Part shown: piece after piece, positions 16,314 to 19,550 of the stretch
Numbering within the stretch: the stretch's first letter is position 1
How the letters are laid out: every line of letters begins with the position of its first letter
Assembly (NCBI RefSeq): GCF_002005225.1
Contig: NZ_CP019724.1
Coordinates: 2,416,001-2,480,000 of the forward strand
Direction: 5' to 3'
DNA: 64,000 bases
Source: Streptomyces pactum
GTDB taxonomy: Bacteria; Actinomycetota; Actinomycetes; Streptomycetales; Streptomycetaceae
Translations under genes and position numbers: made by a program
The notes under the pieces: generated by a model
Databases searched by the model: none
What the model saw: the letters and a program-made list of their open reading frames with translations, nothing else
Told to the model about the DNA's origin: nothing

Positions 16314-16567
16314 CCCCACCTCGGCCCCGACTCGGCCTCGGTACGGCTCCGCCATGGCCCCGACTCGACCCCGGTACGCAAGTGCCGGGGTCGTCGTACG
16401 CCGGCGGCGCGGGCCGTCGCGTCGACGCACCGGCCCCGTCACGCCGTACCGAGGTGGCAACGCGCGCGGGCAACGGCGCACCCCTCCACCGCGCACCCCC
16501 GCACCGCGCACCCCGGGCCACGCGGCGCCCTCACACCGCGCCCCCGAACCGCGCCCTCGCGCCCGTG

Positions 16568-16996
16568 TCAGGCGCCCGGCGTCTCCACCGCCCCCGGTGT
16601 CCGCGGCGTCCACCCCTGCCGACGCAGTACGCCCAGCACGTCCGGTGCCTCGTAGTGGTCGCCCTTGAGTACCTTGCCGTCGGCTCTGCGGCTGATCCGG
16701 CCGTCGGGGCCCAGCTTGGTCATGTTGGAGCGGTGGATCTCGGCGATCACCTCGTCGAGATCGATGCCGTGGACGAGTGCCGTGCCGTAGGCGACGTAGA
16801 CCACGTCGGCCAGTTCGTGCGCGAGGTGGTCGAGCGGGCCCGTCACCGACACCTCGGCGACCTCGGCGGCCTCCTCGGCGAGCAGCTCGCCTCTGTGGGC
16901 GGCCAGCTCGGGCGAGATCTCGGTCGGAGTGCTGCGGGCGTCCAGCCCGAAGGCGTGGTGGAAGGCACGGACCAGGTCGGCGGGCGAGGAACTCAT
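16568..16996 (-). CDS. MazG-like nucleotide pyrophosphohydrolase
   Basis: A 142-residue all-alpha protein. The metal-binding signature of the MazG/dUTPase-like superfamily is visible: EELLAEE-AAEVAE in the first helix pair and HELADVVYVAYG in the second. Members hydrolyse NTPs or phosphoribosyl-ATP-like nucleotides to monophosphate and pyrophosphate; the substrate here is unknown. ATG at 16996. An IS110 element now begins about 41 bp upstream of the start, so its promoter may have been altered. The 254 bp between it and the antiporter gene hold only short GC-rich direct repeats. Confidence 0.85.
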   Translation of the reverse strand: MSSSPADLVRAFHHAFGLDARSTPTEISPELAAHRGELLAEEAAEVAEVSVTGPLDHLAHELADVVYVAYGTALVHGIDLDEVIAEIHRSNMTKLGPDGRISRRADGKVLKGDHYEAPDVLGVLRRQGWTPRTPGAVETPGA

Positions 16997-17037
16997 GCCC
17001 ACGACTGTAACGAGCACCGCTGACATTGATCCTGATA

Positions 17038-17242
17038 CTCAGGTTCCGGTGGTCATGGCTCTGCCACTGACTGACGTCCTGCTGGACTGTCTTCTGGCTG
17101 TTCTGTCCGGCCACCGGGACCTGTTCTCATGGCTCCGGCCGGGCGGAACATGACCTGATAGGAGCTTGGTCAGAAGCCCCTTCAATGTCCTGTCTGCGCC
17201 ACCCGGCCGGCGCCCACCTTCGGCTGGGAAGGCACCATCAGC
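17038..17242 (+). ncRNA. Candidate bridge (seek) RNA region of the IS110 element
   Basis: IS110-group elements encode a structured guide RNA in the left non-coding end, with loops that pair to donor and target DNA. This interval is non-coding and full of short inverted repeats: TGTTC/GAACA (17122-17126 with 17146-17150) and TGACC/GGTCA (17151-17155 with 17167-17171). GGGACCTG (17116-17123) can pair, with one G-T wobble, to CAGGTTCC just inside the left end (17040-17047), as a donor guide would. The CCTGATAGGAGC segment matches the deduced target. RNA ends and folding were not computed; the assignment is inferred. Confidence 0.4.
17154..17165 (+). repeat. 12-nt internal copy of the deduced IS110 target site
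   Basis: CCTGATAGGAGC here shares its first seven bases with the left flank (17031-17037) and its last eight with the right junction (18464-18471). The overlap of those two parts is ATA. Confidence 0.6.
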
Positions 17243-18457
17243 ATGACATCAGCGGTCATGGACAACACGGCAGACCAGGATGTGGTCGGCGGGGTCGACT
17301 CCCACACCGACACCCTCCACGTCGCGGTCATCAGCGACAACGGCGGCCATCTCGCGGACGCCGAGTTCACCACCACTGCCGCCGGATACGCCGCGGCCCT
17401 GGCCTTCCTGACCGCCCACGGCCACGTGATCGCCATCGGGGTGGAGGGCACCGCCTCCTACGGAGCCGGATTCACCCGCGCCGCCCGCGAGGCGGGGCTT
17501 CATGTCGTGGAGGTCAACCGGCCCGACCGGGCCGAACGCCGCCGCATCGGCAAGTCCGACCCCATCGACGCCTACGCCGCCGCCCGCGCCGCCCTGTCCG
17601 GACGAGCCTCCAGCGCCCCCAAGGACGACACGGTCGCGGGCATACGCGCCCTGCACAACGCCGCCCGCTCCGCGGTCAAGGCCCGCACCGCCGCCCTGAA
17701 CCAGATCGGCAGCCTCCTCATCACCGCTCCCGACACCATCCGCGCCAAGTACGGCCGGCTCAAAGGAACGGACCGCACCGACGCCCTCGCCCGGCTGCGG
17801 CCCGCCGGGGACGCGGTCCATACCGCGGTCCTCACCGCGCTGAAGAGTCTCGCCCGACGCGTCAAGAAACTGACGGTCGAACACGAGACCCTGGTCAAGG
17901 CACTGGACAGCGTGGTGAGTGTCCACAACCCCGGACTGCGAGCCGCCCACGGAGTCGGCCCCGACACCGCGGCCCAACTGCTCGTCACCGCCGGAGGCAA
18001 CCCCGACCGCATGCGGACCGAGGCCTCCTTCGCGGCCCTGTGCGGAGCCGCACCGGTCCCCGCCTCCAGCGGCCGGACCAACCGCCACCGCCTCTCGCGA
18101 GGCGGCGACCGGCAAGCAAACGCAGCCCTCTACCGCGTCGCCCTGGTCCGCATGTCGAGCGACTCCCGCACCCGCGAGTACGTGGCACGTCAGACCGCCG
18201 CCGGCCGGACGAAGAAGGAGATCATCCGGCTGCTGAAACGGGCCATCGCCCGGGAGATGTTCCGCTGCCTGACCACCACGGTCACCGTCCCCGGCATCGA
18301 CGATCTACGGCCGCTGCGGCGGTCCAAGAACATCACCCTGACCGCTGCAGCCCGCCACTTCGCCCTCTGGCCGGCCACCATCTCCACCCTCGAACGCGGG
18401 ACCCGCCGAGACGACGACCTCGCCCACGCCTACCGCAACTGGCTCCAAGCCGTTTGA
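17243..18457 (+). CDS. IS110-family transposase with XRE-like C-terminal tail
   Basis: A 404-residue recombinase. The N-terminal RuvC-like DEDD domain (about 15-165) shows D19 (GGVDSH), E68 (GVEGTA), and D106 and D109 (KSDPIDAYAA). The C-terminal Transposase_20 domain (about 230-320) contains HGVGPDTAAQLL and the catalytic-serine region APVPASSGRTN (S275/S276). Residues 353-400 then read like a Cro/XRE helix-turn-helix (LRPLRRSKNITL, ATISTLERGTR), an addition not part of the usual IS110 architecture. GGGAAGG at 17226-17232 precedes the ATG. All key residues are present, so the enzyme looks active. It acts with a guide RNA in known relatives. Confidence 0.93.
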   Translation: MTSAVMDNTADQDVVGGVDSHTDTLHVAVISDNGGHLADAEFTTTAAGYAAALAFLTAHGHVIAIGVEGTASYGAGFTRAAREAGLHVVEVNRPDRAERRRIGKSDPIDAYAAARAALSGRASSAPKDDTVAGIRALHNAARSAVKARTAALNQIGSLLITAPDTIRAKYGRLKGTDRTDALARLRPAGDAVHTAVLTALKSLARRVKKLTVEHETLVKALDSVVSVHNPGLRAAHGVGPDTAAQLLVTAGGNPDRMRTEASFAALCGAAPVPASSGRTNRHRLSRGGDRQANAALYRVALVRMSSDSRTREYVARQTAAGRTKKEIIRLLKRAIAREMFRCLTTTVTVPGIDDLRPLRRSKNITLTAAARHFALWPATISTLERGTRRDDDLAHAYRNWLQAV

Positions 18458-18554
18458 CAGGCAATAGGAGCATCAGTCGGCCCCGCGCGTCTCCGCGCCC
18501 TCCGTGTGAGCTCGGCCCTGGTCAGCGGGGTGGCGGACTGGCAGGATCGCGCCC

Positions 18555-19550
18555 ATGTCCACGCTGCTGTCCCGTATCGGCAGACGCCGGGCCGTGCAGG
18601 GCACGGTCGCCGGTGCGGTCGCCCTCGGGCTGCTGCTGTGGTGGCTGCTGCCGCTGGGCGAGAAGCCGCCGAGCGGGGCGATCACGTTCAGCACGGGCAC
18701 ACGTGCGGGCGTCTACCAGAAGTACGGCGAACTGCTGCGCACCGAGCTGCGCAAGGACATGCCGGGCCTGAAGGTGCGGCTGATGACCAGCGCGGGCTCG
18801 CAGGAGAACGTCGAGCGGGTGGCGTCCGGGGAGGCCGACTTCACGATCGCCGCGGCCGACGCGGTGGAGACGTACAAGATCGCGGGCAGGCCCGGCGCCG
18901 AGGAACTGCGCGGTGTCACCCGCCTCTACGACGACTACGTGCAGCTCGTGGTGCCGAGCGACTCGGACATCCAGTCCGTCGCCGACCTGCGCGGCAAGCG
19001 GGTCGCCATCGGGCTGCCCAACTCGGGCGTACGGCTGATCGCCACCCGGCTGCTGAAGGCCGTGGGTATCGACCCGGAGAAGGACATCACGCCCCGCGCG
19101 GACGGGATCGACACCGGCCCAGGGCGGCTGGGCGAGGAGCTCGACGCGTTCTTCTGGTCGGGCGGCGTACCGACGGACGGGCTCAGGCAGATCGCGGAGA
19201 GTTCCGCCTTCCGTTTCGTGCCGATCGGCGAGGACCTCGTGACCCGACTGCACGAATCCGGCGGCGCGACCCGCTACTACCGCACCACCAACATGCCCGA
19301 GTCGGCCTACCCCACCGTGCAGAACGGTGCCGTGGTGCCCACGATGGCGGTCTCCAACCTGCTGGTGACCCGCGCGGACATGGATCCGCGGCTCACCGAG
19401 TGGCTGACCCGGACCGTGCTCGACAGCCGCGACGGCATCGGGGCGACCGTCCACTCCGCGCAACTGGTGGATCTGCGCACCGCGATCTACACCGACCCAC
19501 TCGAGCTGCATGAGGGGGCCCGGCGCTACTACCGGTCGGTGAAACCGTAG
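18555..19550 (+). CDS. TAXI-family solute-binding protein
   Basis: A 331-residue protein of the TAXI type (TRAP-associated extracytoplasmic). One N-terminal membrane segment (about residues 14-32, GTVAGAVALGLLLWWLLPL) without a lipobox cysteine suggests an anchored or cleaved exported protein. The binding domain has ITFSTGTRAGVYQKYGELL, LMTSAGSQENVERV and DLRGKRVAIGLPNSGVR, all typical of the family. No TRAP membrane subunits adjoin it. It converges on the gluK-gluR pair instead, as in S. coelicolor (from memory). TAXI proteins often bind glutamate or other organic acids; the ligand here is unknown. The IS110 element lies 88 bp upstream. Confidence 0.87.
   Translation: MSTLLSRIGRRRAVQGTVAGAVALGLLLWWLLPLGEKPPSGAITFSTGTRAGVYQKYGELLRTELRKDMPGLKVRLMTSAGSQENVERVASGEADFTIAAADAVETYKIAGRPGAEELRGVTRLYDDYVQLVVPSDSDIQSVADLRGKRVAIGLPNSGVRLIATRLLKAVGIDPEKDITPRADGIDTGPGRLGEELDAFFWSGGVPTDGLRQIAESSAFRFVPIGEDLVTRLHESGGATRYYRTTNMPESAYPTVQNGAVVPTMAVSNLLVTRADMDPRLTEWLTRTVLDSRDGIGATVHSAQLVDLRTAIYTDPLELHEGARRYYRSVKP

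Follow-up and report, generated by a model that had tools for sequence, protein, structure and literature searches.

An IS110-group insertion sequence of Streptomyces pactum with a predicted IS621-like bridge RNA and its donor and target guides

An insertion sequence of the IS110 group, found here in a 64,000-nt stretch of the Streptomyces pactum genome (the window), very probably moves by RNA-guided recombination in the manner of IS621; we put the chance of this at roughly 93%. By comparison of its copies and relatives, it is an ordinary member of the group with a bridge RNA of known kind, and no new guide arrangement is needed to account for it. A 12-nt string in its non-coding left end, CCTGATAGGAGC, which a sequence-only reading had taken for a continuous guide to the target, is by the same comparison a donor guide extended by a chance match. 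The ends of the element, its target, the covariation of guides with their partners and the stems of the RNA all emerge from alignment of multiple insertions. The features are collected in Table 1.

Table 1. Features of the element, in window coordinates
Feature	Position	Strand	Basis
Left target half CACCGCTGAC, ending in the shared C	17015..17024	+	8 of 12 empty loci; tracks left target guide over 55 insertions
Element, from after the left shared C to the right shared C (1450 bp)	17025..18474	+	Five copies; empty loci
GATCCT, −10-like hexamer of a putative promoter formed only in the circle	17028..17033	+	TTGAC at a distance of 17 or 18 nt in 57/57
Predicted bridge RNA, target-binding then donor-binding stem-loop	17040..17215	+	Fold z −5.3; consensus of 30 relatives; start putative
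Stem arm with CAGGTTCC	17040..17052	+	12 of 18 pairs of the stem changed on both sides
Left target guide CTGCCACTGA	17061..17070	+	Permutation test; one of the top-scoring positions for the left flank in 56/56 elements
Right target guide TTCTGGCTG	17092..17100	+	Permutation test
3' arm of target-loop stem, containing GGGACCTG	17111..17123	+	Fold and consensus
12-mer of the sequence-only reading; last 8 letters ATAGGAGC (17158-17165) as left donor guide	17154..17165	+	Conservation in relatives
Right donor guide CCCTTCAATG	17178..17187	+	TCAATG (17182-17187) is the reverse complement of CATTGA (17024-17029)
IS110-family transposase, 404 aa	17243..18457	+	PF01548, PF02371, NF033542
Helix-turn-helix-like C-terminal tail, residues 354-403	18302..18451	+	HTH_31 in relatives; four predicted helices
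Putative −35-like hexamer TTGACA, sharing bases with the stop codon of the transposase	18454..18459	+	TTGAC in 57/57; inference
Right-end ATAGGAGC, DNA read by the left donor guide	18464..18471	+	Conservation in relatives
Right target half AGTCGGC	18475..18481	+	Tracks right target guide over 55 insertions; uninterrupted in L021

Searching the S. pactum genome with the transposase returned 12 matches: five at 100% identity, three at 54% and four partial. The five at 100% belong to identical full-length copies of the element, which, aligned with their flanks, agree at every position from 17022 to 18476 and over 17018-18477 differ at 17019, 17021 and 18477 only. The sequence-only reading had set the edges of the element at CCTGATA (17031-17037) and ATAGGAGC (18464-18471), giving a length of 1429 bp. 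These strings are present, as are its CCTGATAGGAGC (17154-17165, the only exact occurrence of the 12-mer in the window), GGGACCTG (17116-17123) and CAGGTTCC (17040-17047), but because the five copies are identical from 17022 to 18476, CCTGATA and the right-hand ATAGGAGC both lie inside the element. On the left, seven or more bases before CCTGATA belong to the element or to a fixed target, as do three to five bases after ATAGGAGC on the right, and the element measures 1450 bp. The C at 17024/18474 is the sole base common to both junctions in every case. The five copies thereby fix the ends on comparative grounds, and their identity suggests that the element has moved recently. Ends deduced from short repeats can evidently mislead for elements of the IS110 type, and ends, target and guides can be fixed without experiment given several identical copies and a set of relatives.

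The assignment to the IS110 group follows from both the protein and the layout. The transposase matches the two IS110 DEDD domains, PF01548 (70 bits, cut-off 29) and PF02371 (69.1 bits, cut-off 21.3), as well as NF033542, the NCBI model for IS110 RNA-guided transposases (171.3 bits, cut-off 140). Residues D19, E68, D106, D109 and S275-S276-G277, which we take to be the catalytic columns in line with published descriptions, are invariant in all 31 proteins of an alignment that leaves out, among others, L065 and L082, both interrupted by a stop codon, and L096, which contains one unknown residue. An AlphaFold2 model built with 31 sequences (mean pLDDT 84.4) has IS621 and ISCro4 as its nearest structures, with a best TM score of 0.55 by query and 0.68 by target. 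ISCro4 (PDB 9t56) is a relative in sequence and fold, but has 341 residues, and its match ends before the tail region described below. The element has 218 bp before the transposase ORF and 17 bp after it (stop codon counted in the ORF), which is the layout of the IS110 group. Elements of the IS1111 group, which move with a seekRNA, have the same type of transposase and are likewise RNA-guided, but PMC11187229 places their RNA region downstream of the transposase, where this element ends only 17 bp past the stop codon.

Empty loci point to the target. In a search of 61 genomes (S. pactum and 60 relatives) with the left flank, the loci L014-L030 were examined; the left flank matched in 17/17 cases and the right flank as well in 14 of the 17, and because both flanks match, these 14 lack the element. 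Of the 17 orthologous-looking loci, 12 were printed for the junction and 13 searched for the 12-mer. The junction reads CC[AG]C[CT]GACA in eight of the 12 (L015, L019, L020, L021, L022, L024, L025 and L026), two of which, L020 and L021, carry CCGCTGACAGT, and this motif is absent from the other four (L014, L016, L017 and L018). L021 contains CCGCTGACAGTC uninterrupted. Joining the flanks in the window gives CACCGCTGAC followed by AGTCGG, or CACCGCTGACAGTCGG when they are joined at the shared C. In Micropruina glycogenica, the target of elements L105 and L107 is the repeat GTCTCGACRAGCTCGACCA, which occurs at 245 places in that genome with at most one mismatch (136 forward, 109 reverse; control 0); IS621 likewise sits in REP sequences.

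A scan of genome contigs supplied 80 of 213 relatives. Together with the copies in S. pactum, these gave 89 loci at which the transposase matched; all anchors could be placed in 62 of them and both ends in 56, of which 55 were distinct insertions. The 27 of 89 loci that were dropped lacked the 5' end or an anchor, and the permutation set of 56 of 62 was reached by dropping L064 (contig edge), L075, L098 and L100 (no left-end call), and L080 and L086 (no right-end call).

Among these 56 elements, 50 read CA at the left and the right junction alike; our search patterns had required CA on the right-hand side, as well as the TG that ends the right target guide. The remaining six (L088, L093, L105, L106, L107 and L110) have CG on the left and CA on the right, with a donor guide matching CG; for L105, the target repeat exists in both CA and CG forms. 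A second group of elements has CA at the left junction and, on the right, CG (L006-L008), CC (L108, L109, L111 and L112) or CA (L104). Only the C is common to all junctions of the 56 elements and the second group, and the crossover at ATA proposed in the sequence-only reading does not stand. The base beside the shared C differs between the two sides: on the left it fits the donor guide, on the right the target guide. An IS621-type CT core was not found at the two ends, which share C and mostly read CA. According to passages of PMC11208158, IS621 cuts the top strand after the second core base, and this second base is called the stricter. If the top strand were cut after the shared C, as in IS621, all the junctions would be explained. 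That the shared core is instead the dinucleotide CA is possible though rather unlikely: it would suit the 50 elements with CA on both sides, for which the right-hand CA was a requirement of the pattern, but conflicts with the six elements whose left-hand CG is matched by the donor guide, as well as with the sister group, in which CG or CC stands at the right junction of every member named above except L104. A count of 'handshake' bases was discarded, since our own patterns required the TC after the donor guide and the GA before the junction.

In the scheme given for IS621 in PMC11208160 and PMC11208158, the left guides pair with the bottom strand and equal the top strand on the left, whereas on the right it is the top strand to which the guides pair; the target loop precedes the donor loop. 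Read in this way, 4 of 6 scored letters of the left flank GCACCGCTGA in the window agree with the left target guide. The right target guide pairs with CAGTCGG over seven letters with two wobbles (2 of 4 scored letters strictly, 4 of 4 with wobble). Across the five copies, the left flank agrees with its guide at 5, 4, 6, 6 and 4 of 6 letters, and the right flank at 2, 3, 3, 2 and 2 of 4 letters strictly or 3, 3, 4, 3 and 4 with wobble.

Over the 55 distinct insertions, the agreement of guides with their own partners exceeded that with permuted ones. Left target pairing averaged 5.40 of 6 letters against 3.82 (sd 0.12) after permutation; right target pairing 2.64 of 4 against 1.52 (sd 0.11), or 3.09 against 2.05 with wobble; and right donor pairing 5.89 of 6 against 5.37 (sd 0.04). 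In each of the three guide-DNA pairings, 0 of 20,000 permutations reached the observed value, and the outcome was unchanged when each guide set was represented by a single insertion (n=37), although these statistics ignore kinship and the elements are not fully independent. The letters scored for target pairing are free of anchors; those scored for the left end are partly fixed by anchors, equally so in the permutations. We also compared the left flank (9 nt) with every position in 180 nt of the RNA: the left target guide was among the best places in 56/56 elements and the single best in 54. The mean was 8.39 of 9 letters, whereas shuffled flanks averaged 6.14 and reached at most 6.41 in 200 shuffles, three of the nine flank letters being fixed by the search pattern. 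On this comparative evidence, guides and flanks covary across insertions. All four guides of the IS110 group, matching target and donor on opposite strands, can thus be recognized, three by permutation and the fourth, the left donor guide, by conservation only, since both it and the right end are nearly invariant.

The region harboring the guides is predicted to fold as a bridge RNA. Positions 17034-17233 reach −99.7 kcal/mol against −76.8 (sd 4.3) for 200 shuffled sequences, that is, a z-score of −5.3. The consensus fold, calculated from 30 of the 45 RNA stretches, contains 53 pairs, 21 of them with changes on both sides, and forms two stem-loops with internal loops, the target loop first, as is characteristic of IS110 bridge RNAs. 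Its first element is the target stem, which begins 16 nt in from the left end, at the presumed start of the RNA. GGGACCTG and CAGGTTCC, earlier proposed to be a donor guide and its match, make up the closing stem of the target loop; 12 of its 18 pairs have changed on both sides, and the donor-guide assignment was rejected. The consensus leaves both target guides unpaired, while the single-sequence fold pairs some of their letters. In the left donor guide, the consensus pairs GG and GC, which speaks either against a free guide or for a rearrangement upon binding. Rfam gave no match up to an E-value of 1 in 16500-19000. These results bear on a further alternative, namely, that the left end is an untranscribed relic in which sequence habit, and not a guide RNA, produces the matches. 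We consider it very improbable: guides and flanks covary across insertions, base pairing in the stems is preserved where both partners have changed, and the five identical copies suggest recent movement. The suggestion of the sequence-only reading that this is an IS110-group element with a likely guide RNA in its non-coding left end is borne out.

What, then, is the 12-mer? The right end starts with ATAGGAGC in 58 of 62 related elements (two more are one letter off and two are without a call, under a search pattern that allowed small departures only), the RNA region holds it in 48, and 44 elements have it in both places, in excess of chance. Because of these frequencies, we identify ATAGGAGC, by comparison, as the functional part of the 12-mer and as the left donor guide for the right end, in line with an alternative already raised alongside the original claim, that it belongs to the right donor end. 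The remaining match, of CCTGATA to the left end, looks like chance: it occurs in both the left end and the RNA region in 7 of 59 elements, in the RNA region alone in 28 and in neither in 24, and the seven double cases, among them the five identical S. pactum copies, share one left-end sequence. The RNA regions read GACCTGATAGGAGC, GACCTCATAGGAGC, GACCTTATAGGAGC or GACCTAATAAGAGC and the left ends, for instance, CATTGATGCTGATACT, CATTGATACTCGTAGC or CAGTCATAGTGATACG, and the two do not track each other. The full 12-mer is shared by the RNA regions of 34 of 62 elements with differing flanks, and the flanks of other insertions bear no relation to 17154-17165: AGGAG stands at the right flank in none of 55 distinct insertions and CCTGA at the left flank in one (L106). 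The target guides proper lie about 90 and 60 nt upstream. An original target CCTGATAGGAGC with crossover at ATA and the 12-mer as a continuous target guide, although the letters are all present as described, is close to impossible: both edge strings lie inside the five identical copies, the 12-mer occurs in 0 of the 13 orthologous empty loci searched (L014-L026), relatives with the same 12-mer differ in their flanks and follow other guides, and the 26-nt host sequence built from both ends, as would be expected for insertion into a repeated sequence, has no match in the S. pactum genome with up to three mismatches.

From the conserved parts, we infer how transcription, with its promoter and start site, and recombination would proceed. 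For IS621, parts of PMC11208160 and PMC11208158 describe an RNA made from the left end and a promoter expected across the circle junction. Here, the right and left ends would abut in an excised circle, with an expected junction of AATAGGAGCATC followed directly by ATTGATCCTGATA, and TTGACA and GATCCT, 18 nt apart, would form a promoter. TTGAC is found in 57/57 elements, at a spacing of 17 nt in 13 and 18 nt in 44; for the −10-like hexamer, the search pattern required the A in second place but not the last T. All ten elements with passenger DNA between the transposase and the right end also retain TTGAC, so its conservation does not come from the stop codon alone. On the linear sequence, where a junction promoter would not be visible, scanning 16900-18600 for promoters gave no sigma-70 site. 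Transcription would begin near 17040, where the first stem opens, and continue through the target-binding and donor-binding loops. In the target loop, CTGCCACTGA would read the left target half and TTCTGGCTG the right half (target form CCACTGACAGCC); in the donor loop, TCAATG would recognize the left end and ATAGGAGC the right, and the transposase would join both DNAs beside the shared C.

The element thus resembles IS621 in its predicted left-end RNA, the order of target and donor loops, the strands that the guides read, the putative circle-junction promoter, and a recombinase with DEDD and catalytic serine. It differs in a core of C (or CA) instead of CT, and in its guides and target; moreover, because the RNA would start near 17040, there would be no room for the 5' stem-loop of the IS621 type. 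The protein, at 404 aa, is also longer than the IS621 chain of 328 residues and ends in an additional C-terminal tail.

Beyond the part shared with IS621, helices are predicted at residues 355-361, 366-373, 377-385 and 391-403. The tail is present in 29 of the 31 aligned proteins and absent in the 54% identical sister group. HTH_31 matches 26 of 31 relatives at E ≤0.1 (best 1.7e-6) and the window protein at 0.035, or 0.00097 with the tail alone, the last two both below the Pfam cut-off. The abbreviation HTH is absent from the main text of PMC11208160, and the term helix-turn-helix from that of PMC11208158; a limited literature search on such domains at the C-terminus of IS110 transposases, covering portions of the sources, came upon no description of a tail of this kind. 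As a guess, the tail might regulate the junction promoter. More broadly, we tentatively entertain, while holding it unlikely as a whole, the picture of an actinobacterial branch in which exchange takes place beside a single C with the neighboring base set separately by the guides, the RNA lacks the 5' stem-loop, the tail binds the junction promoter and tunes RNA supply or donor capture, and passengers are repeatedly picked up inside the right end. The branch to which the element belongs could yield recombinases that use a different core, have one more DNA-binding tail and come with natural cargo.

The three matches at 54% identity in S. pactum are copies of a second IS110-type element (L006-L008), which has the same RNA layout and a ATAGGAGC right end, but lacks the C-terminal tail and has other target guides and a G instead of an A at the right junction. 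Together with L104, L108, L109, L111 and L112, it lay outside the permutation test, having no anchor, and the layout is alike by eye; in L108, CTCCGCCTGAC is common to guide and left flank, and in L104 the guide CCGTTG pairs with CAACGG. The four partial, more distant transposase matches (L009-L012), at about 7.53 and 8.31 Mb of the S. pactum genome, are perhaps relics.

Passenger DNA of about 0.3-1.1 kb lies between the transposase and the right end in 14 of the 21 relatives that were checked for a right end lying farther away (L051, L055, L063, L066, L069, L071, L077, L084, L085, L087, L091, L099, L102 and L104). Its ORFs encode DUF7660 in L066 and something similar in L071, while L077 has a GyrI-like domain and L102 an epimerase; one further ORF is common to L051 and L104, and another to L085 and L099; PADLOC returned nothing for four passenger proteins. 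The relatives are mostly from Streptomyces, and related DNA is found on six plasmid records, all Streptomyces, two of which cover most of the element.

In the window, the element lies 28 bp upstream of the likely start of a MazG/PRA-PH-like gene (PF01503; minus strand, ATG at 16996, region 16568-17024) and may have separated this gene from its promoter. Beyond the right end, a gene for an NMT1-like binding protein begins at 18555. Finally, for an IS110-like element in mycobacteriophage Omega, a passage in PMC3706429 describes a 5-bp duplication, CACTG. The left target in the branch described here, CCACTGA, contains this string, and the Omega 'duplication' may therefore merit re-reading with guides in mind.
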